A DNA stretch of 44,751 bases, from contig DXCO01000027.1 in the NCBI GenBank assembly GCA_019115945.1, positions 1 to 44,751 on the forward strand, read 5' to 3'. A model generated the notes under the pieces. The model ran no database searches and was not told the DNA's origin. It was given only the letters and a program-made list of their open reading frames with translations. The translations under genes were made by a program, and so were the position numbers. Shown piece after piece: positions 25,813 to 43,276 of this stretch (positions are counted from its first letter, which is position 1; each line of letters begins with the position of its first letter). Origin of the DNA: Candidatus Borkfalkia excrementavium. Its GTDB lineage: Bacteria; Bacillota; Clostridia; Christensenellales; Borkfalkiaceae.

Positions 25813-26196
25813 TTACCCCCTTCTGTCTCCGTCAGTCGGATCTTTCGACTTCTTTTTTACCCCATAAACCTCGAACATTGGCTGCTCCGTCAAAAAATCA
25901 TCAAAACTGTTTAAGTTTTTTCTATATAATCTATTACGGATAATTTTAATATCACATGCTACCATCAAAACAAAACGTGCCCCCAACCAACTTAACCATA
26001 CGATAAACAAATCCGTAGCAAATGCAATCAGCCATAATATAAAATCCATCGCCTCTGCCTCTTTAAAAAATTCTGTTTCCCCTAAAAGAAGAGGTTCAAA
26101 TATGTAATCAAAAGCCACCAAAAAGGCCCATATGATTGCGGCTATATTTACGACGCTCCTTAAAAAGTGCAACGGGCGATCAAGTTTTTCAAACAT
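25813..26196 (-). CDS. Small membrane protein paired with an XRE regulator
   Basis: The 127-residue protein has two hydrophobic segments (about residues 14-32 and 50-75). These are followed by VACDIKIIRNRLYRKNL and a polar, charged C-terminal tail of about 40 residues that should lie in the cytoplasm. I recognise no family with confidence. GAGGTG lies 5 bases before the ATG. The gene and its flanks are strongly AT-rich against the surrounding GC-rich genes, a sign of transfer. It is divergent from an XRE repressor, with overlapping promoters and an operator, as in small phage- or plasmid-derived regulatory pairs. A role as immunity or stress protein is speculation. Confidence 0.75.
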   Translation of the reverse strand: MFEKLDRPLHFLRSVVNIAAIIWAFLVAFDYIFEPLLLGETEFFKEAEAMDFILWLIAFATDLFIVWLSWLGARFVLMVACDIKIIRNRLYRKNLNSFDDFLTEQPMFEVYGVKKKSKDPTDGDRRG

Positions 26197-26859: not shown

Positions 26860-28548
26860 TCAATCCTCTGCGGGGATCCCGCAGGGATGGCAGGCGCGGC
26901 CTTCGGCGCGCGCTTCGCCCGCTACGATCGCGTAAAAACGATACCCGCCCGAAAAATTCAGGCAGTCGAACCCGTGCCCCATCAGCATGCGGCAGGCGAT
27001 ATAACTTCTAAGACCGCTCTGACAGTTTACGTATATCCGTTTATTCCGATCCAATTCGCCGAGACGGGGCCGAAGTTCGTCGACGGGAATATTGACCGCG
27101 CCGGGGAAATGCCCTGCCGCAAACTCCTGCGGCGTACGCACGTCGAGCAGAAAAGCGTCTTTTTCTCCGTACACTTTCGGAAGGTCTTTCCAGTGGAACT
27201 GCTTTACGCCCTGCCGCACGTTCTCGGCAACATACCCTGCCATATTGACGGGGTCTTTTGCGGAAGAATACGGCGGCGCATAGCAAAGATCGAGATCCTG
27301 AAGGTCCGCTGCGGTCATGCCCGCACGCATTGCCGCCGCAAGCACGTCTATCCGCTTTTCGCTGCCCTCGTACCCCACTGCCTGCGCGCCGAGCAGTTTG
27401 CCGCTTTCAGGCGAAAACAAAACTTTCAGCGTCATATTTTTCGCGCCAGGATAATACGTGGCGTGATTGGGAGAAAACAGGACGACCCGATCGAAATTCA
27501 GCCCGACAGCCTCGGCGCCGCGCTCGGAAAGCCCCGTAAATGCGGCGGTCATATCGAACACTTTGAGCACGGAAGAGCCCGCCGCGCCCTTATATTCGCT
27601 CGCAATGCCCGCAATGTTGTCCGCCGCAATGCGGCCCTGTTTGTTTGCAGGCCCCGCAAGGGAGACGAGAGCATCCGCGCCCGCCGAATTTTTTACCTGC
27701 ACGGCATCGCCCACGGCGTAAATATCGGGATCGGAGGTGCGCATGTGCGCATCCGTAAGGATGGCGCCCTTGATACCGAGGGACAGCCCCGCTTCCTTTG
27801 CCAATCGCGTATCGGGCGTAACGCCCACCGCCATGACCGCAAAGTCGGCAAAAAGATCTCCCTTGTCCGTGCCGACGCACAGGCCGCCTTTTTCGGAAAA
27901 GCCCTGTACTTTGCAGTTCAGCCGAAGATCGAGGCCCTTTTCACGAAGGTGCGCGTGCAGGATACAGGCCATATCGTAATCGATCTGCGGAAGGACTTGT
28001 CTGCCCCATTCGACGAGGGTGACCGAAATGCCCCTGTGCATGAGGTTTTCCGCCGTTTCCAGGCCGATGAATCCGCCGCCGACCACGATCGCGCGCGCGG
28101 GATTTGCGCTGTTGATAAAATCGTCGAGCGCGAAGGTATCTTCTACGGTGCGGAGCGTAAAGACCTTTCCCGAATCCGCGCCCGAAACGTCGGGTACGAG
28201 CGCTTTCGCGCCGGGAGAAAGGATCAGTTTGTCGTACGGTTCGAGATATTCAGAGCCGTCTGCAAGCCTTTTTACGCGGACGCACTTTTCGCCGCGCAGG
28301 ATCTCGACAGCCTCGTTTTTCACGCGCACGTCCACGTTGAAACGGGATCTGAAACTTTCGGGCGTCTGCAGCGTGAGCGCGCCGCGGCGCGTAATGACGC
28401 CGCCGACGTAGTAAGGCAGTCCGCAGTTTGCATACGAAACATAGCCGCTCCGCTCCAGAACAACGATCTCTGCGGATTCATCCAGCCGGCGGAGCCTTGC
28501 CGCCGCCGTGGCGCCGCCCGCGACGCCGCCGATAATAACTACTTTCAT
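26860..28548 (-). CDS. CoA-disulfide reductase with C-terminal rhodanese domain
   Basis: This flavoprotein of the pyridine nucleotide-disulfide reductase family has 562 residues. The N-terminal FAD site is IIGGVAGGATAAARLR (5-20). Active Cys42 lies in SYANCGLPYY, the single-cysteine centre of CoA-disulfide/persulfide reductases. The NAD(P)H site is AIVVGGGFIGLETAENL, and a dimerisation domain follows. A rhodanese domain (about 465-545) carries active Cys509 in CQSGLRSY. Such fusions reduce CoA disulfides or polysulfide/persulfide in anaerobes. The start is fixed by GGAGGAG ahead of 28548; a longer frame reaching 28815 overlaps the ZIP gene and is spurious. It is third in a four-gene operon. 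Confidence 0.93.
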   Translation of the reverse strand: MKVVIIGGVAGGATAAARLRRLDESAEIVVLERSGYVSYANCGLPYYVGGVITRRGALTLQTPESFRSRFNVDVRVKNEAVEILRGEKCVRVKRLADGSEYLEPYDKLILSPGAKALVPDVSGADSGKVFTLRTVEDTFALDDFINSANPARAIVVGGGFIGLETAENLMHRGISVTLVEWGRQVLPQIDYDMACILHAHLREKGLDLRLNCKVQGFSEKGGLCVGTDKGDLFADFAVMAVGVTPDTRLAKEAGLSLGIKGAILTDAHMRTSDPDIYAVGDAVQVKNSAGADALVSLAGPANKQGRIAADNIAGIASEYKGAAGSSVLKVFDMTAAFTGLSERGAEAVGLNFDRVVLFSPNHATYYPGAKNMTLKVLFSPESGKLLGAQAVGYEGSEKRIDVLAAAMRAGMTAADLQDLDLCYAPPYSSAKDPVNMAGYVAENVRQGVKQFHWKDLPKVYGEKDAFLLDVRTPQEFAAGHFPGAVNIPVDELRPRLGELDRNKRIYVNCQSGLRSYIACRMLMGHGFDCLNFSGGYRFYAIVAGEARAEGRACHPCGIPAED

Positions 28549-28577
28549 ACTAAAAACTCCTCCCTGTTCTGATTCGA

Positions 28578-29369
28578 TCATCCCAGCGCGACGTCGAGCA
28601 GCATCATCACGAGAAACCCGACGATCACGCTCGCCGTGCCCGCGTGCGAATGTTCGCCCAAATGCGCCTCCGGTATCAGTTCTTCGACGACGACGTAGAT
28701 CATGGCGCCGGCCGCAAAAGAGAGGACCCACGGCATGATACCCTGCACCGTACCCGCCACGAGTACGGCAAGGATCCCGAAAACCGGCTCTACGACGCCG
28801 GAAAGCGCGCCGCACAAAAACGCGCGCCGCTTGCCCGCGCCCGACGAGCGCAAAGGAAGGGACACCGCCGCGCCTTCCGGAAAGTTTTGCAGCGCCATGC
28901 CGATGGCGAGCGCAACCGCGCCCGCAAGCGCGGCCGTTTCGTTCATCGCCGCGGCGGCAAAGGCAAGCCCGACCGCCATGCCTTCGGGAATGTTATGCAA
29001 AGTGACCGCAAGTACGAGCATGGTCGGCTTTTTCAGATGAGAAGGCAACCCTTCCGGTTCGTCGCTGCCGATATGCTGATGCGGCAGAAGCCTGTCGAGC
29101 AACAGCAGAAACAGGGCGCCCGACGCAAAGCCGATCCCCACAGGAAGCAGTTCGTTATGCCCCTGTTCCCTTGCCGCCTCCATCGCGGGAATCAGAAGAG
29201 ACCATACAGAGGCCGCGATCATTACGCCCGCCGCAAAGCCTAAAAATATTTTCTGCATTTTGGGCGACATGTCCTTTTTGAAAAAGAACACCATCGCCGC
29301 GCCCAGAACGGTTGCAAGGCAGGTCGCGCCCGTACCGATCAGGGCGAACAGCAATTCTCGTCCTAACAT
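28578..29369 (-). CDS. ZIP-family divalent metal transporter
   Basis: The 263-residue membrane protein has about eight hydrophobic segments. The paired metal-site helices are TLHNIPEGMAVGLA and GMALQNFPEGAAVSLP, diagnostic of ZIP importers for zinc, iron or manganese. A loop between segments carries a short His-containing stretch (LPHQHIGSDEPEG), and near the end GEHSHAG adds two more His. AAAGGA lies ahead of the ATG. It follows the NifX-like gene by 22 bases and precedes the CoA-disulfide reductase by 29, within one operon from the promoter at 29845-29873. Metal specificity cannot be read. Confidence 0.93.
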   Translation of the reverse strand: MLGRELLFALIGTGATCLATVLGAAMVFFFKKDMSPKMQKIFLGFAAGVMIAASVWSLLIPAMEAAREQGHNELLPVGIGFASGALFLLLLDRLLPHQHIGSDEPEGLPSHLKKPTMLVLAVTLHNIPEGMAVGLAFAAAAMNETAALAGAVALAIGMALQNFPEGAAVSLPLRSSGAGKRRAFLCGALSGVVEPVFGILAVLVAGTVQGIMPWVLSFAAGAMIYVVVEELIPEAHLGEHSHAGTASVIVGFLVMMLLDVALG

Positions 29370-29844: not shown

Positions 29845-29873
29845 ATTTTACCGCTGCAAAAAGAGATTGTCAA
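29845..29873 (-). promoter_or_regulatory. Promoter of the NifX-ZIP-CoADR operon
   Basis: Minus strand TTGACA (29868-29873), 17 bases, TAAAAT (29845-29850). A TGTCAA repeat just downstream (29837-29842) forms an inverted pair with the -35 and might be part of an operator. Confidence 0.82.
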
Positions 29874-29893
29874 CAAATCCGCCCGATGAAAAA

Positions 29894-29949
29894 AGAAAAT
29901 GCGGATTTACGTTTTCTATGCCGAAAATCGGCAACATACGTAAATCCGC
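29894..29949 (-). terminator. Terminator after the glycyl radical activase gene
   Basis: Perfect 12-base outer arms GCGGATTTACGT and complement (29901-29912, 29938-29949) with an inner GCCGA/TCGGC stem (29920-29932), followed on the minus strand by ATTTTCTTTTTT. A separate 14-base palindrome, GTTTCAGCTGAAAC, stands at 29957-29970. No gene is supported in 29874-30047. Confidence 0.75.
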
Positions 29950-30047
29950 GCTTAAAGTTTCAGCTGAAACCAAAACCCCGTCAATCCATCCCGAAACAAA
30001 AAGGGTCGCAAGTAAAATCGTGAATGGCATATTCGCACAAAGCATTT

Positions 30048-30959
30048 TTACCGATTGATGCTGCATCGGACACCCAAAGCAAGAAGTCGTTTTCGGATCT
30101 CTTTCAGATGATCGGAAGTTACCGACCAATTTTTATTTCCGCCGTAAGGAATGCCGAGTGCGCTATACTTTGATTCTCCGTATTGTCTGTAAGAAAAAAT
30201 TTCTACACCACGGCAGTTTTTCAGCGCATGATAAATTTCCGCAATCTTTTCGATATGTTTTCCGTCGGTATTCAATCCGTTGAGTAAAATACAGCGAATC
30301 AGCGTTTTTCCCCCGAGCCTGTCCGCTGCGAACAGGTTATCAATTATTTTGCGATTGGATACGCCGGTATATTTTCTGTGCCTTTGCTCATCCGTATCTT
30401 TGATATCCCATAAAAAAAGATCAGTGTTCCCGACAAGGGGCAATATAAACTTTTCGTCAAAATACCCGCACGTTTCCATTGCGGTATGCAACCCGCGCGA
30501 CTTTGCGGATTTCAGCAGTTCGATCGTCTTTTCGCCATGAAACATCGGTTCCCCGCCGGAAAGCGTAATACCGCCTGTCTTTCCATAAAACGCCCTGTCC
30601 TTTTCCGCCTCTTCCAAAATATTTTGGATACGCATGCGGATACCCTGTATTTCCAGTGCGCCCGTAGGGCAACTTTCCGCGCAACGCATACATTCCGAGC
30701 ATAACTCTCTTTTCAAAATATGCTTTGGTTGAAATACATGTACCTTATCCGGGCATACTTGTTCACAGATTCTGCAACCAATGCACAGAGACGGCGTATA
30801 GAAAAATTCCGCTCCGGAACTTTGCGATTCGGGATTATGGCACCATCTGCACCGAAGCGGACAGCCTTTGAGAAAAATGACGGTTCGCAGCCCCGGCCCG
30901 TCATGCGAACAAAACCTCTGTATTTTGAGTACGGGAATCTCGTCCCTCTGTTCAGACAT
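30048..30959 (-). CDS. Glycyl radical enzyme activating protein, radical SAM with two extra 4Fe-4S sites
   Basis: It installs the glycyl radical on its partner enzyme by SAM cleavage. The 303-residue protein has the radical SAM cluster CPLRCRWC (Cys33, 37, 40). A ferredoxin-like insert follows with CIGCRICEQVCP (Cys59-69) and CSECMRCAESCP (Cys87-97), then TLSGGEPMFH for SAM binding. Two extra clusters occur in activases of dehydratase-type glycyl radical enzymes (choline lyase, glycerol dehydratase group) but not in the plain pyruvate formate-lyase activase. The start overlaps the last 8 bases of the partner gene, so they are co-translated. Lower GC than the core genes. Confidence 0.95.
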   Translation of the reverse strand: MSEQRDEIPVLKIQRFCSHDGPGLRTVIFLKGCPLRCRWCHNPESQSSGAEFFYTPSLCIGCRICEQVCPDKVHVFQPKHILKRELCSECMRCAESCPTGALEIQGIRMRIQNILEEAEKDRAFYGKTGGITLSGGEPMFHGEKTIELLKSAKSRGLHTAMETCGYFDEKFILPLVGNTDLFLWDIKDTDEQRHRKYTGVSNRKIIDNLFAADRLGGKTLIRCILLNGLNTDGKHIEKIAEIYHALKNCRGVEIFSYRQYGESKYSALGIPYGGNKNWSVTSDHLKEIRKRLLALGVRCSINR

Positions 30960-33078
30960 TCTGCTCCGTTCTCCCGATAATCATATCCTGCCACTCCCGA
31001 GTGAGCGTGATAAACCGCGCATTCCAACCGGAAACGCGCACGGAAAGCGTTTTATATTCTTTAGGATTTTGTTGCGCATTGCGCAATGTCTGTGCGCTCA
31101 CGGCATCGATTTGCAAAAAATATCCGCCCAGTTTCACAAAGCCGCGGAGCAGAGACTTCAAAGACGAAATCCCCCCTTCTCCGCTCAATGCCTGCGGAGA
31201 AATTTTGAGATCAAGAGCGGCACCCGTAACCATTTCGGAAAGATCTGCCCTGCAGTAAGATCGGATCACCGCTGTAACGCCCTCCGTATCCGTACCCGGC
31301 GAAGGTGACGCATTGCCCGCGAGCACTGCACCCGCCCGGGTGCCCTCCGCCGCCGCAAGGCGGTTCTGCGCCCATCCGATCTCCCTGCCGAATGTAGATA
31401 CGCCTGCAGGAAAAAAACAGTTCCCCCTCTTATCCCATCTCCTGCACGCAAGAGCAAAATCATGCAACAGGGCGGCATAAATCCTGTCGACCTCTTCATT
31501 ATCCGTACCGTAGTAGTGAAGTGAAGCCGCATAACTGCGCAAAAGATCGTTTCCGCGCCAATTCTCGCGCAAAACGTCCATAAATTCCGCAAATGAGATT
31601 TTCTTTTCGTCGAATACCAATTTTTTGATCGCATACAGGCTGTTGACCGTATCGGCCACACCGCCGATGTGCGGGGAAAATACATTGTATTCGGGTCCGC
31701 CTTCATAATAAGAACGCGCCTTTTCGATACACCCCCGTTCAAACAGTGACACGACGGAACAGGGCGCAGCCGTTTTCCATTCGCCGCAAGGCGCATTGAT
31801 TTCCGGCCCGCCGAATGCCTGCGAAATAGACTCGTAAATCTGTTTCACCTGATCGTTCAAATCGGAGACGTATGCTTCATACAGGCTTTCAAATGAAGAA
31901 AATTCCCTGTTGCGGTAACCGTTCAGCGTTTTTTTCTGTAACAAAGCGAGCGAATCGAAAGGGATGTAAATAAAAAACGATTTTCCCGGAATTTGCACTT
32001 CCCAACACCCGTCGTTTGCAAAATTTTGCGCATCTTCTGACGGGTATCCGTATGCCGTAAGGGACTTCAAAATCAATGTCTCGTTGTAAACCGCCACGAC
32101 CCCGCCGCCATGCCGCATCACTTTGGAAACTTTACGCAGCAGCCTTTCCGGAGTATTTTCATGCAGGCGAACCGTGATCGGAAAATCAGAAATCCCCAGT
32201 TCCTCCACAATATCCAATACAAGATAGGTAACTTCGTTTGCGACCTCCCTGCCCTGCATATCAGTTCCGGCGAGAATAATATTCTGATAATGCTGTGCAT
32301 CACCGTTTGAAGGAGGCGTATCTTTGAGAATCCATTCCGTCCCCTTGATAAAAAATGAGGCGAGAATCTCCCTTGCACGGTTACGGGTCAAAATGCCGCT
32401 TTCCAGATCCCTTTTCAAATAATCGCCCAAAAGCACATCCAGTCTTCCGATTCCCGGCCAGTTTCCGCAGAGACGGACAAAAGAAAATACAAACCACACA
32501 GATTGTACCGCTTCATGAAAATTGCGCGCAGGATGAAAAGGGACTTGTTGCAGATTGCGGTAAATTTCAGGCTTTTCTTTCTCAACCTTCTCAAGATAGC
32601 GCTGATGATAAATTCGCATTGCCGAAATCACGTTCAAAAGGCTTTTCAAAAAACGGGTCTGCCGATTTGAAAGTGTTTTATCTTCAAGCCGCTCGGCAAT
32701 TTTTTGTCTGTAACTGTCTATCCCGAACCGAAGTGCAGTTTCATAATCGATGGTAAGGTGACTCACGCTCGAAAATATTTTCTCCCCTTTAAAATAAGCG
32801 GGGATAACGTGGCCGATTGCCGCCCCCAGCGTCGCCGAACCGGAAATCAATTCTTCTTCGCACACGCGAAGAGGCGCTTTTTTTGCAATCTCCGTAACCA
32901 TGAAATCGTACTTGTCTAAATCGTCGTACTCGTTGAAATGTTCATTCTCGATTTCGATATCAGGCGTTTTCATCGCCTCTTCTCCGTATTTTCCGCGCAT
33001 GGATTCATCTGCCCACCTGCGAATCTTTGCCGGAAGACGGACAGGGCGTTTACTGTCCGATGACGTAAAAAACTCCAT
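30952..33078 (-). CDS. Glycyl radical enzyme of unassigned substrate
   Basis: An oxygen-sensitive cytosolic radical enzyme, 708 residues, shorter than pyruvate formate-lyase or choline lyase (roughly 760-850). The glycyl radical loop near the C-terminus is RVSGWNARF with Gly684; the family usually has Tyr where Trp685 stands. The thiyl-radical loop is NDGCWEVQIPG with Cys358 and Glu360. A single Cys followed two residues on by Glu is the dehydratase/lyase arrangement, whereas pyruvate formate-lyase has two adjacent Cys. Also seen are SPSPGTDTEGVTAVIRS (about 591-607) and GGYFLQIDAV (651-660). It is co-transcribed with its activase and divergent from an AraC regulator. Substrate unknown; no microcompartment, transporter or dehydrogenase gene is adjacent. 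Confidence 0.93.
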   Translation of the reverse strand: MEFFTSSDSKRPVRLPAKIRRWADESMRGKYGEEAMKTPDIEIENEHFNEYDDLDKYDFMVTEIAKKAPLRVCEEELISGSATLGAAIGHVIPAYFKGEKIFSSVSHLTIDYETALRFGIDSYRQKIAERLEDKTLSNRQTRFLKSLLNVISAMRIYHQRYLEKVEKEKPEIYRNLQQVPFHPARNFHEAVQSVWFVFSFVRLCGNWPGIGRLDVLLGDYLKRDLESGILTRNRAREILASFFIKGTEWILKDTPPSNGDAQHYQNIILAGTDMQGREVANEVTYLVLDIVEELGISDFPITVRLHENTPERLLRKVSKVMRHGGGVVAVYNETLILKSLTAYGYPSEDAQNFANDGCWEVQIPGKSFFIYIPFDSLALLQKKTLNGYRNREFSSFESLYEAYVSDLNDQVKQIYESISQAFGGPEINAPCGEWKTAAPCSVVSLFERGCIEKARSYYEGGPEYNVFSPHIGGVADTVNSLYAIKKLVFDEKKISFAEFMDVLRENWRGNDLLRSYAASLHYYGTDNEEVDRIYAALLHDFALACRRWDKRGNCFFPAGVSTFGREIGWAQNRLAAAEGTRAGAVLAGNASPSPGTDTEGVTAVIRSYCRADLSEMVTGAALDLKISPQALSGEGGISSLKSLLRGFVKLGGYFLQIDAVSAQTLRNAQQNPKEYKTLSVRVSGWNARFITLTREWQDMIIGRTEQNV

Positions 33079-33118
33079 ATTGCTCCTTTAAAATCACGAA
33101 TTTTTATTTTCTAATACT

Positions 33119-33147
33119 ATTTTATTGATCATATCATCAATTTGCAT
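33119..33147 (-). promoter_or_regulatory. Probable promoter of the glycyl radical enzyme operon
   Basis: Minus strand ATGCAA (33142-33147), 17 bases, TAAAAT (33119-33124). The -35 is poor, as expected for an activator-dependent promoter, and abuts the divergent promoter's -35. Confidence 0.55.
33124..33141. promoter_or_regulatory. Dyad ATTGAT-N6-ATCAAT filling the promoter spacer
   Basis: Perfect six-base half-sites, six-base centre. It occupies essentially the whole spacer of the enzyme operon promoter and ends 5 bases before the AraC gene's -35. Confidence 0.5.
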
Positions 33148-33175
33148 TGACTAAATCCTCATTTTTTTGTATTAT
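33147..33175 (+). promoter_or_regulatory. Promoter of the AraC regulator gene
   Basis: TTGACT (33147-33152), 17 bases, TATTAT (33170-33175). Predicted start near 33182, directly before the G8 tract. Confidence 0.78.
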
Positions 33176-33201
33176 ATTATCATATGGGGGGGGATAACCG
33201 C

Positions 33202-33990
33202 ATGATCATTTCGGATATAAAAATCGAAAGTCTTTCGGCAAACGGGTTTTCACACAGCGCGGAAGGAATACACCAGATAAAATTTTTGCCTTTTCTTTCC
33301 GTTGTACAGGCAACGGAAGGAAGTTATGACATCCGGATCGGCAACTCACCCACTTTTTCAACAGGGGAAAACGGCATTTTTATTGCCCCTGCAAACGCCT
33401 TGCAGGAGATCACCCATCACGACGGAAAAGAGGGCAATATGCAGGCGCATTGGGTGTTTATCGACGCCATAGTGAACGGAGAATACCGATTCGATGAAAT
33501 TTTCACCTTTCCTGTGATTCTCGATGCTGCTTATAACGAAGAAATTTCTATGCTCACCGAAAAAATCCGTTCCCCCAAAAATATCTTTCAGAAAAAGCAA
33601 GCGGCATACAGACTTCTGGAAATCCTTGCAGCGGAAGGCAGGGAACGAAAAAACGGTCTGCACCCGATTCATACGAAAATAGAAACTTTCGTAAAGTCTC
33701 ATTTTATGGAAGATATACGTGCCGAAGATCTTGCCAAACATCTTTTTTGCTCTGTCCCGCAAGTATTCAGATATACGCACAAATATTTCGGGCTTTCCCC
33801 TGCAAATTATATCAACGGAATACGGCTGCAACAAGCGGAAATCAAACTCCGCACTTCGAATAAAACCGTAACGGAAATCGCTTTTTCCTGCGGGTTTAGC
33901 GACAGTGCCTATTTTTCCAAACTTTTCAAAAAAAATTATGCCCAATCCCCTTTGCGCTACCGCAGGGAGCATTTTGAAAAAATTGATTGA
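33202..33990 (+). CDS. AraC-family transcriptional regulator with cupin-like sensor domain
   Basis: The 262-residue DNA-binding protein has an N-terminal sensor of about 150 residues with cupin-type beta strands (FLSVVQATEGSYDIRIG, GENGIFIAPANALQEITHH). The C-terminal double HTH has IRAEDLAKHLFCSVPQVFRYTHKYFGLSPANYINGIRLQQA and VTEIAFSCGFSDSAYFSKLFKKNY, an intact AraC signature. I place the start at 33202, where the G-rich GGGGGAT serves as ribosome site. An in-frame ATG at 33184 would add six residues but lies at the predicted transcript end and is followed by the G8 tract. It most likely controls the divergent glycyl radical operon in response to a sugar-like or small organic ligand. Confidence 0.92.
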   Translation: MIISDIKIESLSANGFSHSAEGIHQIKFLPFLSVVQATEGSYDIRIGNSPTFSTGENGIFIAPANALQEITHHDGKEGNMQAHWVFIDAIVNGEYRFDEIFTFPVILDAAYNEEISMLTEKIRSPKNIFQKKQAAYRLLEILAAEGRERKNGLHPIHTKIETFVKSHFMEDIRAEDLAKHLFCSVPQVFRYTHKYFGLSPANYINGIRLQQAEIKLRTSNKTVTEIAFSCGFSDSAYFSKLFKKNYAQSPLRYRREHFEKID

Positions 33991-34071
33991 ACTCCCAAAT
34001 ACTTTTCTTTCAACATACTGCAATCACAAATTCGTTTGCCTGACAGAAACAAAGGGTAGGCTTGATATAAA

Positions 34072-34125
34072 TATGCACCCCAAAAGTTGGACAGACTTTT
34101 GGGGTGCATATCACTTTTTATTTTC
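34072..34125. terminator. 16-base perfect hairpin terminator between the AraC and YerC genes
   Basis: Arms TATGCACCCCAAAAGT (34072-34087) and complement (34095-34110), seven-base loop, then TCACTTTTTATTTT. It ends the AraC transcript and can also serve the convergent YerC operon. The arm sequence resembles terminal repeats of IS3-group elements, but no transposase is present. Confidence 0.82.
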
Positions 34126-34167
34126 AATTTACGGCACAAGAATTTTTTAATTTTCCAAAAATGATGA

Positions 34168-34461
34168 TCAGTTTCCTTTTCTTTGCGGAATAAGCACGTT
34201 TGCAATAAACTTTCTGTACCCGCCGCTGCCGTGGTTGACGGCGCGCGAGACGCGGGATAAGGTCGCGGAAGAAATATCCGTTTCCAAAATGATCTCCGCA
34301 TACGTTTTTCCTTCGATCAGCAGTTTTGCCGCCGCGGCACGCTGAGAAAGTTGTTCCAATTCCTGGTAGGTGCACAGATCTTCCAGAAGAAGGCGCACGT
34401 CTTCCTCCGTTCTGCAGTTGAGGAAAGCGCCGTACAGCACCGGCGAAAAATCCTTTTTCAT
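34168..34461 (-). CDS. YerC/YecD family TrpR-like protein
   Basis: The 97-residue protein has the Trp-repressor-like helical fold: LYGAFLNCRTEEDVRLLLEDLCTYQELEQLSQRAAAAKLLIEGKTYAEIILETDISSATLSRVSRAVN, with the HTH at about residues 53-75. Members are widespread in Firmicutes and of uncertain role; DNA binding is inferred from the fold. It follows the amino-acid transporter ATPase by 13 bases with GGGGGTGAG ahead of the ATG, so it is the last gene of that operon. It might feed back on transport, but no TrpR-like operator is evident near 36875-36903. Confidence 0.9.
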   Translation of the reverse strand: MKKDFSPVLYGAFLNCRTEEDVRLLLEDLCTYQELEQLSQRAAAAKLLIEGKTYAEIILETDISSATLSRVSRAVNHGSGGYRKFIANVLIPQRKGN

Positions 34462-34474
34462 CGGCTCACCCCCG

Positions 34475-35347
34475 TCAGATCTCTTCCAGCGACTTGGAAA
34501 GGAAAGCGCGCGTCTTTTCGCTTTTGGGGCTGCCGAACACCTCTTCGGGCGTGCCCTCCTCTTCGATCACGCCGTCCGCCATGAAAATAACGTGATCGGC
34601 GACGTTTCTTGCAAATTCCATCTCGTGGGTGACAACGATCATCGTGCTGTCTGCCGATTTCAGGCTTTTGATCACCTTGAGTACCTCGCCCGTCAGTTCC
34701 GGATCGAGCGCGGACGTCGGTTCGTCGAAACAGAGGATGTCGGGATTGAGCGCGAGGGCGCGGGCGATCGCGACGCGCTGCTGCTGGCCGCCCGAAAGTT
34801 CGTAGGGGTACGCATTCCGCTTTTCCGACAACCCCACCCGCACGAGGAGGGATTCCGTCTTTTCCGCTATGCGCGCTTTCTGTCCGTTTTTGATATCCGC
34901 TAAAACTTTTTTCTGTTCGGCTCTTTTTGCCGCGCGCTCTTCTTTCGGGAGAGCGCGCGCTTCCGCCGCAAATTCTGACTTGATGCGGCGGAATTCACGC
35001 TTTGCCAGAAGCATCTGCGCGAGCGCAACATTTTTATACACGGTATATTGCGGAAACAGATTGAAAGACTGAAATACCAGCCCGAAATGCAGGCGTTTTT
35101 GACGGATCTCCCGCTCTTTGGTCTGCTTTTTGTCCGCAGCGTCGAACAGCCGTTCGCCGCTCAGGGAAAGGGAGCCTTCGTCGGGGATTTCGAGAAAATT
35201 CAGGCATCTTAAAAGGGTCGTCTTACCCCCGCCAGACGAGCCGATGATGGCGAGCACTTCTCCCTTTTCGAGCGTGAAAGAGATGCCTTTGAGCACTTCG
35301 TTGTCGCCGAATTTCTTTTTATAATTGTTTACTTCGAGAAAGGACAT
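34475..35347 (-). CDS. Polar amino-acid ABC transporter ATP-binding protein with helical insertion
   Basis: This GlnQ/HisP-type ATPase has 290 residues against about 245 usual. Walker A is GSSGGGKTT (36-44), the Q-loop lies in VFQSFNLFP, the signature is LSGGQQQR (184-191), Walker B is [12 protein letters not shown] and the H-loop is VVTHEM. The extra length is a charged helical insertion at about residues 117-160, between the Q-loop and the signature, rich in Lys, Glu and Ala. Related insertions occur in some clostridial amino-acid transporters. The gap from the permease stop is 3 bases. Substrate presumably the amino acid bound by the 36004-36789 protein. Confidence 0.94.
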
Positions 35348-40909: not shown

Positions 40910-43198
40910 TTATTTTCTCTTTTTGCGCTTTTCTTTCAGGCTCTGTTTCTGTTCGGCCTCGCCCCCGTTCTTGACGGATACGACTTTTTTATCTTTCGGC
41001 TTGATAAGAAGCAGTACCACGATGCCGATCAGGCACACGCCGCCGATGCACATAAACACGACGGACAGGATATTGTTCTGCAGCCAGTACGTTTCTCCGG
41101 GGAGAACGTCCGCTTCCGAACTTACGCTGATCACGACCGCTTCGTTTGCCGCGGCAGTCGTCATACCCTGGTCTTTCGCGCTTACGGTGATGCCGTAATA
41201 ACCCGTTTCCTGAGGAATGAAAGACAGAGCGGAAGAAGGATTCCATGCATATACATTATCGCCGTAATCCTCATCCTCGTCCGCATTCTCCTCTTCGATC
41301 ATGCGCCAGGTGCCGTATTCGCACTCGCCCGTTTCGGACATGTTCATGAGAGAATTTTTCAGATCCTCTTTGGAAATCGTCCTGCCGGCATACGATGCGT
41401 TTACTTCCAGATAATACAGTTTATATTCCTTTTTGATCTTGTTGTAATCGTCTTCAAGGGAGATGATCTCGAAACCGTCCGACGTATACGTCACGTCGAT
41501 ATAGCCGTCATCCGCTTCTTCCGGTTCTTCGATCGCCACGCCGTTGTACTTCACGGTAAAGGTAAAGGTGGGGATCTCCGCCAGATCCCAAACATTGGAA
41601 GAGGTGATCTCGGTCACGGGGATCGTCTGCGGTACGCCGTCTTTCAATTCGTGCGCGATAATCGCATTTCCGAACGTGTTTGTAGGCACGATACGGAATT
41701 CGTATTTGCCTTCTGCGGTCAGTTCGATCTCGAGTTCGTCATAAGCGAGTCCCGTAAGGCTCTGCGTATCCGACTTCGGCGTGCGGTAGTAGATATCGAA
41801 CTGCATATCCGTGTACCCGCAGGTAGCGTCTGTAATATACGCTTTAAGAGAAGGGAGATAGAAGTACGCGCCCGAACCTACCTGAATGCTCGTCGTTCCG
41901 TCATCCTGCACGGCGGCCTGGTTTACCAATTTCTGATAATCGGCGATATCGTTCGCACCTACAGTAGAAGGATTGCCTTCCGCATCATTCTCGGCGGTCG
42001 TATCGTTAAACGTATAGGAAGGCGCCGCATCCGAATCGGGCTTGACCACTTTGATATAGCCGTAATCGTCTTCGATAAATCCGGAAGTATTGCCAGAATC
42101 GGACGCCGCGGCATACCATTCGATAAAGTAATAAGCGTCGTTGTCGCCGTCGTCAAGATTGAAGGCGACGCTCAGATACCCCGTCCCGTCCGAATCGATG
42201 GAAGGGAGATCCTTTTCAAAGAAAACAGCGTTCGAATCCATCCTCTCGTAGTTGGTATCTTCGCTGTCGATCGCAACGCGGGGATTTTCTGCATCGTAAC
42301 CGTAATAATATCTCGTCGTGGTGACGGAACTGTCGAGCACGTCGATCACGACGTAATCGAAATCCAGTTCCGCGCCGAGCATGAACTGCCTGACGTCGCT
42401 GTTGACGACGAGAACGGGCGCTTCGGTATCCTCTACGCTGCCGCTGTCGTTGAGCGCGAGGCTCTGCCCGTTCAGCGAACGGATGACGAGCAACTGCTCC
42501 GTCTGCCCCTGCGCGAATTCGTCTACTTTGAAGGTGAGCGGCGTAATGGGCGTATCGGCCGTGGAAGCCGCATACTGTGCATAAAACTTACCGATATTTT
42601 CAAACACGCCGACGTTCGTGCCGTTTACCGTGACGGTATATTCGCCGTTCGACTCGCCCGTGAAAGCGACTTTGATAACGCTGACCTGAGACTCGCCTTC
42701 CGTGACCGTGTTTTCAGAAAATTCGTGGGATGTTCCGTCGTTGACGGAAGCCTTCAGCGCGCCGTTATCGACGGTAAAGGTGATCTTGTTGGAACTTTTG
42801 CCATCTTTGCTGGAAACGAACTGCCCCGCTTCCATCGTGACGGAAAAGGAATTGAAATGATATTCCGCGCCGAGGGAAAACTCTAATTCGAAATATTTTT
42901 CCGTTCCCTTGAAAAGGTCCGCCGCGGCATCCCCTTCCGGCTGTTCCGCCTGGTACCATTTCAGAGCGAGGTTCTTTCTGTAGTAAATACTGCTGCCCTC
43001 GTACAAATTATAGGCGACATACCCCTGGTCCGTCACGGAAGTTGCCGCAGTGGTGCCGAAAATATTGCTCGGCGTATATGTTGCGGCGTCTGCGCCGATC
43101 GGGGCCGAATACGCCAGCGTAAAACACAGCGCCGCCACGGCCAGCACGAATACCGCGAATAAACTGAGTAATTGAATTTTGAATTTCTTGATTCCCAT
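40910..43198 (-). CDS. Large acidic surface protein with C-terminal membrane anchor
   Basis: I do not recognise a family for this 762-residue protein. A signal peptide covers about residues 1-38 (KFKIQLLSLFAVFVLAVAALCF, ending near GADA). The extracellular part is about 660 residues, strongly acidic, rich in Asp, Glu, Thr, Ser and Tyr, nearly free of Cys, and beta-rich in pattern with stretches suggestive of concanavalin-like or Ig-like folds. A single transmembrane helix (about 705-730) is followed by a Lys/Arg-rich cytoplasmic tail; there is no LPXTG sortase motif. I start at the ATG at 43198; a GTG six codons earlier is possible. Adhesin or wall-associated sensor roles are guesses. Single-gene unit. 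Confidence 0.85.
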   Translation of the reverse strand: MGIKKFKIQLLSLFAVFVLAVAALCFTLAYSAPIGADAATYTPSNIFGTTAATSVTDQGYVAYNLYEGSSIYYRKNLALKWYQAEQPEGDAAADLFKGTEKYFELEFSLGAEYHFNSFSVTMEAGQFVSSKDGKSSNKITFTVDNGALKASVNDGTSHEFSENTVTEGESQVSVIKVAFTGESNGEYTVTVNGTNVGVFENIGKFYAQYAASTADTPITPLTFKVDEFAQGQTEQLLVIRSLNGQSLALNDSGSVEDTEAPVLVVNSDVRQFMLGAELDFDYVVIDVLDSSVTTTRYYYGYDAENPRVAIDSEDTNYERMDSNAVFFEKDLPSIDSDGTGYLSVAFNLDDGDNDAYYFIEWYAAASDSGNTSGFIEDDYGYIKVVKPDSDAAPSYTFNDTTAENDAEGNPSTVGANDIADYQKLVNQAAVQDDGTTSIQVGSGAYFYLPSLKAYITDATCGYTDMQFDIYYRTPKSDTQSLTGLAYDELEIELTAEGKYEFRIVPTNTFGNAIIAHELKDGVPQTIPVTEITSSNVWDLAEIPTFTFTVKYNGVAIEEPEEADDGYIDVTYTSDGFEIISLEDDYNKIKKEYKLYYLEVNASYAGRTISKEDLKNSLMNMSETGECEYGTWRMIEEENADEDEDYGDNVYAWNPSSALSFIPQETGYYGITVSAKDQGMTTAAANEAVVISVSSEADVLPGETYWLQNNILSVVFMCIGGVCLIGIVVLLLIKPKDKKVVSVKNGGEAEQKQSLKEKRKKRK

Positions 43199-43276
43199 CG
43201 TTGAAAACCGCTCCACGATTTTAATCGCAACGCCCTCCGCGTGCGCAGAGGGGCGCTTTTATGCCTGTACTTTTCT

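Follow-up and report, generated by a model that had tools for sequence, protein, structure and literature searches.

The 44,751-nt window analysed here, contig DXCO01000027.1 of Candidatus Borkfalkia excrementavium (assembly GCA_019115945.1), contains a compact cassette built around a glycyl radical enzyme (GRE). The GRE gene overlaps by 8 nt the gene for its radical S-adenosylmethionine (SAM) activase, and a gene for an AraC-family regulator diverges from the pair (Table 1). A first-pass annotation of the sequence had described a GRE of 708 residues with Cys358-Trp-Glu360 at the thiyl site and RVSGW at the glycyl radical site, an activase with two extra iron-sulfur sites, and an AraC regulator belonging to the cassette. 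The open reading frames (ORFs) and Pfam domains agree: both GRE motifs stand where described, the activase has a Radical_SAM domain and two Fer4 stretches, and the divergent ORF has HTH_18 and HTH_AraC domains. No further gene was recognised inside the inserted segment, and hairpins lie at both of its ends.

Table 1. Coordinates of the GRE cassette and its elements in the window.
Feature	Position	Strand	Evidence or remark
GRE gene	30952..33078	-	708 aa; Pfam PFL-like 2e-85 and Gly_radical 2.5e-21
Cys loop N355-D-G-C358-W359-E360-V-Q-I-P-G365	31984..32016	-	aligned to the Cys-x-Glu of glycerol dehydratase, propanediol dehydratase, HypD and CutC
Gly loop R681-V-S-G684-W685-N-A-R-F689	31012..31038	-	Gly_radical Pfam match
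His107 codon	32758..32760	-	aligned with HypD His160; equivalent of CutC Asp216 and IslA Gln193
G205-N-W-P-G-I-G-R212, family motif at the beta-2 substrate-contact site	32443..32466	-	W207 in 81/81, P208 in 76/81
GRE activase, radical SAM, 303 aa	30048..30959	-	NCBIfam TIGR02494, 297 bits against a cut-off of 174
Radical-SAM Cx3Cx2C of the activase (C33, C37, C40)	30840..30863	-	from the translation
Pair of ferredoxin-type 4Fe-4S motifs in the activase (residues 55-72 and 84-103, approximately)	30651..30797	-	Pfam Fer4 twice; Fer4_6 at 55-72
AraC-family regulator, divergent, 268 aa as ORF	33184..33990	+	Pfam HTH_18 7.9e-20, HTH_AraC
Predicted araC promoter TTGACT-17-TATTAT, coinciding with the conserved intergenic element	33147..33175	+	10/12 consensus match
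Candidate -10 TAAAAT of the GRE promoter, without a good -35	33119..33124	-	sequence reading
Terminator-like hairpin 3' of the activase gene	29901..29949	-	12-nt perfect inverted repeat
Terminator-like hairpin 3' of araC	34071..34111	+	17-nt perfect inverted repeat; 18-pair stem in terminator scan
Insertion, approximate limits	29850..34205		blastn: no alignment with three same-genus empty sites (L177, L178, L179)

By its sequence, the protein is an eliminase-type GRE, for which a glycyl radical and a 1,2-elimination are predicted. The features of that class are all present: Cys-x-Glu, the glycyl motif, the GRE barrel fold and a radical-SAM activase. Pyruvate formate-lyase (PFL) has a Cys-Cys active site. 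Here the residue preceding Cys358 is Gly, so there is no such pair, and the PFL model TIGR01255 scores only 82 bits against a cut-off of 994, which bears out the earlier placement of the enzyme with Cys-x-Glu enzymes and apart from PFL. An AlphaFold2 model made with 61 sequences has a predicted local distance difference test score (pLDDT) of 92.1 and a predicted template modelling score (pTM) of 0.92, and its closest PDB folds in Foldseek are GRE eliminases (TM score 0.83 to propanediol dehydratase, PD, 5i2g; 0.84 to glycerol dehydratase, GD). The fold matches comprise PD, GD, CutC, HypD, YbiW, PflD, N-methyl-hydroxyproline dehydratases and IslA, at 20–25% identity and TM scores of about 0.76–0.85 to the query. 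PD tops the list at 25% identity and no single match stands out.

The enzyme had also been said to fit no named subclass, and indeed no NCBIfam equivalog cut-off is reached. The PFL2/glycerol dehydratase subfamily model TIGR01774 gives 317 bits (cut-off 678). The models for HypD (257 bits, cut-off 1100), the sulfopropanediol dehydratases HpsG/HpfG (256 and 238 bits, cut-off 1000), PflD (244.5 bits, cut-off 1109), CutC (236 bits, cut-off 1050) and the indoleacetate and hydroxyphenylacetate decarboxylases all fall at 163–257 bits, against cut-offs of 1000–1150. Likewise, the activase passes the general model TIGR02494 and no equivalog among those shown.

To what group, then, does the GRE belong? 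A pattern scan of genome contigs recovered 205 relatives among 231 matched stretches, and the best 80 of these 205 are 50–88% identical to the window GRE. Where a source is stated, it points to the guts of roe deer, water deer, goat, sheep, cattle, buffalo, yak, rabbit (Lapin) and horse, and some taxon names point to birds. The peptide patterns included NDGCWEVQ, so conservation of Trp359 among those relatives is partly built in; for this residue we used instead a profile scan, built from the same relatives and not requiring the motif. The profile scan covered 391 same-class genomes (E 1e-85, two candidates scored per genome), some being the same assemblies as pattern-scan loci, and found the family in 20. 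Eighteen of these have full or nearly full matches of at least 1,032 bits, the other two have broken or partial copies whose best pieces score 639 and 589 bits, and the best scored match outside the family reaches 369 bits. By profile, the GRE is a member of a discrete, sharply bounded family. Within the genus it occurs in 2 of 37 genomes, many being incomplete drafts. No member of the family was found to be characterised.

Conservation was read from an alignment of 81 sequences including that of the window, 61 of which form alignment A1. We left out locus L007, where the frame read meets a stop after 19 codons, as well as the second GRE of L035, which is PD-like; the activases of L076 and L080 are truncated by contig ends. 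Cys358-Trp359-Glu360 is present in all 81 sequences, which were retrieved with NDGCWEVQ, and in all 20 profile-scan genomes. Trp685 occurs in all 81 and in the 18 profile-scan genomes readable there. Because both Trp residues are kept in genomes from the motif-free scan, their conservation is more than chance. Also invariant are His107, Trp207, Asp260, His263, Tyr264, Tyr371, His470 and Ser561–Arg565, and position 258 is Ser, Thr or Asn in 79 of 81. Among the open-licence papers listed, no title or abstract opening concerned a Cys-Trp-Glu GRE, and an excerpt of PMC11574389 states that many abundant GREs have unknown function. The family is real, under selection and nameless, one among many uncharacterised GREs.

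We built a midpoint-rooted GRE tree of 50 rows (49 different), with a weak root split (52/94) and ten long-branch rows. The window family forms one clade with support of 100/100 on a stem of 1.44 changes per column. It joins CWE3 (L137) at 89/93, then the CWE2 group and L148 at 81/92; this last union of Cys-Trp-Glu rows is not a starred node, in a tree that takes in the motif columns. Outside the family lie a GD-like row (L154, 1293 bits to 1r8w), the PD-like second GRE of L035 (1171 bits to 5i2a) joined by L092 and L094, a CutC row (L158) and a HypD row (L138), each above its own model cut-off, and E. coli YbiW and PflD. A grouping with glycerol or propanediol dehydratase, which had been named as a result that would overturn the earlier reading, was seen in none of the NCBIfam comparison, the profile scan and the tree.

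A diverged glycerol or 1,2-propanediol dehydratase with the same reaction is accordingly the third in probability of the four alternatives that we consider, and improbable. GD (1r8w, B12-independent) and PD (5i2a/5i2g) do top the PDB lists by sequence and by fold. They share with the window GRE the fold, the Cys-x-Glu loop, the beta-1 His and the Tyr at the beta-3 aromatic site. His107 and Tyr264 align with GD H164 and Y339, whose roles we take as commonly understood. However, identity in structural alignments is 24–25% for PD and 23% for GD, against 23% for HypD and 20–23% for CutC, and the window GRE has 708 aa to their 787–843. The Val after the thiyl Cys and the Tyr after the radical Gly are both replaced by Trp. 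GD H281, S282 and D447, which we take to be substrate residues, are not kept: the H281/S282 loop is two residues shorter and no Asp aligns with D447. Nor is there a linked microcompartment. Microcompartment genes are missing from 12 of the 20 family genomes, including that of the window, and in the other 8, all drafts, always lie on contigs other than that of the GRE; a microcompartment reading was rejected.

At least three other groups of uncharacterised GREs also have the Cys-Trp-Glu motif, so a Trp beside the thiyl Cys is not exclusive to the window family. In L134, L135, L136, L137 and L148 Trp follows the thiyl Cys as it does here. The first four are 26–29% identical to the window GRE, and the five carry three distinct Gly loops (VRVWGWSGYF, VRLGGVTAYF and VRVWGFSTYF). 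The GREs of L134, L136 and L137, the three that were scanned, reach no NCBIfam cut-off. Trp after the radical Gly is found too in CWE2 (VRVWGWSGYF) and in three GCYEP-type rows (VRLCGWN or VRVCGWN).

Several of these outlying loci merit description. In the same-genus genome G023 (L136:1075-17331), two uncharacterised GREs, one of the GCYEP and one of the ACWEF type, each accompanied by a radical-SAM activase, flank a GH43 gene and, judged by sequence start, likely sugar ATP-binding cassette (ABC) transporter and nucleoside-hydrolase-like genes; this region is a possible unexplored GRE pathway. In G042 (L137:1717-9779), a PflD-like GRE (682 bits to the PflD model, under its cut-off of 1109) is found with a Cys-Trp-Glu GRE that has a GGVTAYF glycyl loop. 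Beside them are radical-SAM activase genes (one scanned, one recognised by its sequence start) and a gene for a periplasmic binding protein of the sugar type. L068:4638-6710 and L106 encode odd GREs on long branches, 690- and 596-aa pieces in which CCTAD and GCHW replace Cys-x-Glu.

The cassette appears to have been acquired. The earlier suggestion of acquisition leaned on low GC content, and the figure itself is exact (42 of 100 bases at 31921-32020) and weak, since 109 of 894 100-bp segments of the contig are at or below 42%. GC at third codon positions (GC3) is 0.46–0.52 in the cassette against 0.54–0.73 in most other genes measured, and lower still in a nearby ABC permease and binding protein (0.44 and 0.37). 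Acquisition finds its support elsewhere, in empty sites and synonymous divergence. In three same-genus genomes (G026, G011 and G007), YerC-like/ABC genes directly adjoin NifX-like/ZIP genes and approximately 29850-34205 of the window is missing; G002 has the cassette at the same place as the window. From the empty sites alone, loss in G026, G011 and G007 instead of gain is possible. Between the window and G002, however, synonymous differences per site are 0.40–0.51 in the three cassette genes and 0.69–0.77 in the eight flanking genes compared, as if the cassette were younger in common than its surroundings, which would point to lateral exchange. Base composition alone would not explain this, because the permease and binding protein, with low GC3 in both genomes, show 0.72–0.75 synonymous differences, though at protein identities of no more than 60% and 42%. 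The GREs of the two genomes are 88% identical, and dN/dS values of 0.08 (GRE), 0.13 (activase) and 0.13 (AraC) indicate strong purifying selection, by which all three genes have been kept working. Horizontal acquisition of the cassette is supported by these comparisons.

On balance, we think it rather probable that the family makes up a GRE subclass whose reaction or substrate differs from that of every characterised GRE, and that it has spread by lateral transfer, as a unit that stands alone, among Clostridia of the gut (of herbivores and birds, going by record titles). It would form part of a larger Cys-Trp-Glu superclade, where the bulky Trp beside the thiyl Cys gives the active site a new shape to suit an unusual substrate.

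The surroundings of the cassette say little about the pathway that it serves. Of the 78 loci that could hold an activase homologue next to the GRE, 58 have one, and a divergent AraC homologue is present in 37 of the 75 with room for it; both counts include the window. When neighbours in 82 loci were clustered by blast, the GRE cluster was found in 77, activase in 58 and AraC in 39; the next cluster reached 6, and no conserved pathway partner or transporter emerged. Odd loci have genes for glycoside hydrolases (GH78, GH127, GH2, GH38, GH32), FAD_oxidored, GFO/IDH/MocA or URO-D. Pfam families were tallied in neighbours drawn at random, 110 of the 167 that lie no more than two genes and 1.5 kb from the cassette and 110 of the 146 that lie more than 4.5 kb away, and the 25 commonest of 138 and 123 families, respectively, were compared, with rarer families outside the comparison. 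Near neighbours included GDPD (3), FAD_oxidored (2), GFO (2) and URO-D (2), far ones rhamnosidase (3), AP_endonuc_2 (3) and GFO (2), and none of these commonest families was enriched near the cassette. A link to carbohydrate pathways was dropped as evidence, not as a possibility. With no conserved transporter or pathway gene, and carbohydrate families no commoner nearby, the suggestion of a gut- or plant-derived substrate gained no support.

The same data bear on whether the substrate is an anhydro-sugar, opened by the enzyme, or a sugar phosphate. According to excerpts of PMC12441222 and PDB titles, E. coli YbiW and PflD, which share the GRE and activase pairing and Cys-x-Glu, act on 1,5-anhydro-hexitol 6-phosphates. 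Some copies of the window GRE are operon-like with GFO/IDH/MocA or FAD_oxidored genes or lie near glycoside hydrolase genes, and the invariant Arg565 and Arg573 would be in keeping with such a substrate. On the other hand, the PflD model falls far short of its cut-off, and YbiW and PflD lie on separate branches from the window family. Fructose-6-phosphate aldolase genes adjoin both ybiW and pflD, and phosphotransferase system (PTS) genes adjoin pflD; neither kind is beside the window GRE. Since no further gene cluster occurs in more than 6 of 82 loci, there is no conserved PTS or kinase, and carbohydrate families are not in excess among those shown. We regard this explanation as unlikely, though it stands second among the four.

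The pocket offers a hint of the substrate. We took equivalences from alignments with HypD, direct or through a HypD-like row; those for CutC and IslA, and the roles of the residues, are as given in excerpts of PMC7077986 and PMC8473560. His107 corresponds to HypD H160, CutC D216 and IslA Q193, and Tyr264 to HypD F340, CutC F395 and IslA W374. HypD shares Cys-x-Glu with the window GRE, together with a polar residue at position 258 (HypD S334, GD F333), and differs by alignment at D278 (Pro208), D339 (His263), T645 (Gly564) and R156. The last corresponds to position 103, counted from His107, which is Ser in the window and variable across the family. These assignments hint at a pocket that is polar, holds the eliminase base together with a His, and lacks a conserved anion-binding Arg at position 103. 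The substrate would most likely be small, neutral and polyhydroxylated, because the Arg that lies near the carboxylate or sulfonate in HypD and IslA has no conserved counterpart. With a neutral, hydroxyl-rich substrate, dehydration would be the likeliest reaction, albeit weakly indicated at such identity.

Cleavage of a C-N or C-S bond in an amino alcohol or sulfonate, as by CutC or IslA, is the foremost of the alternatives and still unlikely. The Cys-x-Glu loop is common to both enzymes in the same excerpts, and CutC, choline trimethylamine-lyase, is also an eliminase with a dedicated activase. Against this reading, the CutC and sulfopropanediol models score far below their cut-offs, CutC D216 and F395 are replaced by His and Tyr and no microcompartment is linked in the window, and the equivalents of IslA Arg189, Gln193 and Trp374, reached through HypD and CutC, are Ser, His and Tyr at 103, 107 and 264. 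No sulfonate or amine gene was found among the annotated neighbours, which are part of all neighbours. The CutC activase, CutD, is of the two-ferredoxin type, like that of the window.

The interpretation that we favour, to which we give close to an even chance, is that the cassette is an acquired GRE eliminase unit under the control of its own AraC protein, which most likely serves to dehydrate a small neutral polyhydroxy compound; the substrate is a prediction. In this proposal, the activase would place a radical on Gly684, from which it would move to Cys358. The thiyl radical would abstract a hydrogen atom from a hydroxyl-bearing carbon while Glu360 accepted the proton of the same hydroxyl. 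The neighbouring group, most likely a hydroxyl, would then leave, helped by His107 and other invariant polar residues, for which His263, Tyr264, Tyr371 and His470 are candidates. This would give a deoxy aldehyde or ketone, open to reduction by general alcohol dehydrogenases. Iron alcohol dehydrogenases are encoded in 18 of the 20 family genomes and are commonplace, being found in 13 of 14 control genomes. AraC would sense the substrate or a relative of it and turn on the GRE promoter.

The intergenic region is compatible with such control. An AT-rich element upstream of the GRE was derived from the 37 loci with a divergent AraC, and occurs within 2 mismatches in 34 of these source loci against 7 of 42 loci lacking one; among these 7 is L044, where the upstream gene is truncated by the contig end. 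The motif sampler must place one site in every sequence; its best run out of six reached 15.9 bits, the others 12.0–14.3, and four shuffles 7.7–8.1. On the araC strand, the element reads as a sigma-70-type promoter. The prediction rests on conservation, not on the promoter scan, because the scan found about as many promoter-like sites in the region (7) as expected (6.6). The predicted -10 ends at 33175, too close to an ATG at 33184, so AraC probably starts at the second ATG, at 33202 (262 aa). A second ATAGTAT stands 21 bp further along the consensus, an arrangement that would fit an AraC dimer if, as we assume, the usual spacing rule applies. A -10-like hexamer can be read on the GRE strand, with no clear -35, suggesting that the GRE promoter is activator-dependent. 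A regulon search with a strict two-part pattern of the element returned one site in 20 genomes, at a cassette; it says little, because the pattern misses the window's own cassette.

Several observations weigh against the dehydratase proposal. Two of the 19 genomes readable at position 103 (L116 and L117) have Arg there, which weakens the argument for a neutral substrate, and the invariant Arg565 and Arg573, should they point into the pocket, could hold an anion. The HypD acid D278, at beta-2, is Pro208 in the window GRE, so the identity of the leaving-group acid is a guess. All pocket residues were placed by sequence alignment at 20–30% identity, not from coordinates. A divergent AraC is missing from about half of the loci, and 20 of 78 have no activase beside the GRE (L007 counts among the latter solely through its broken GRE frame), so the trio is one arrangement among several. 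Finally, in some AraC-less copies (L041, L055, L037 and L074) the GRE follows a TTGACA/TATAAT-like promoter, apparently strong and constitutive, which fits poorly with a purely substrate-induced role.

These promoters, and the lack of a conserved pathway partner, would accord with a biosynthetic or housekeeping role in which the enzyme contributes one step feeding core metabolism and not the catabolism of a special compound. We consider this the least probable of the four alternatives, since the family is patchy (present, as noted, in few genomes of the genus and class, many of them incomplete drafts) and the empty sites and synonymous divergence are signs of lateral transfer. The function of the family is directly testable. 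The GRE family is small, two proteins should suffice for an assay, and the ligand of the regulator that often accompanies the enzyme should point to the substrate. A stand-alone GRE unit of this kind is a good target for new anaerobic chemistry.

The two hairpins that bound the cassette differ in their evidence. The one 3' of the activase gene is followed, on the minus strand, by A and TTTTCTTTTTTC, and is not among the sites of the terminator scan, which found 3 against 6.1 expected. Elsewhere in the window, the amino-acid ABC transporter ATPase at 34475-35347 has an apparent charged insert at about residues 95–150 that splits or stretches profile matches; full-length matches at 72–80% identity occur in many same-genus genomes. 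Two ORFs, 40910-43216 (768 aa) and 25813-26196 (127 aa), have no NCBIfam match at E 0.001. A CoA-disulfide-reductase-like ORF at 26860-28815 is called from a GTG within the adjacent ZIP gene, and its true start is probably near residue 90–91, where the profile matches begin.

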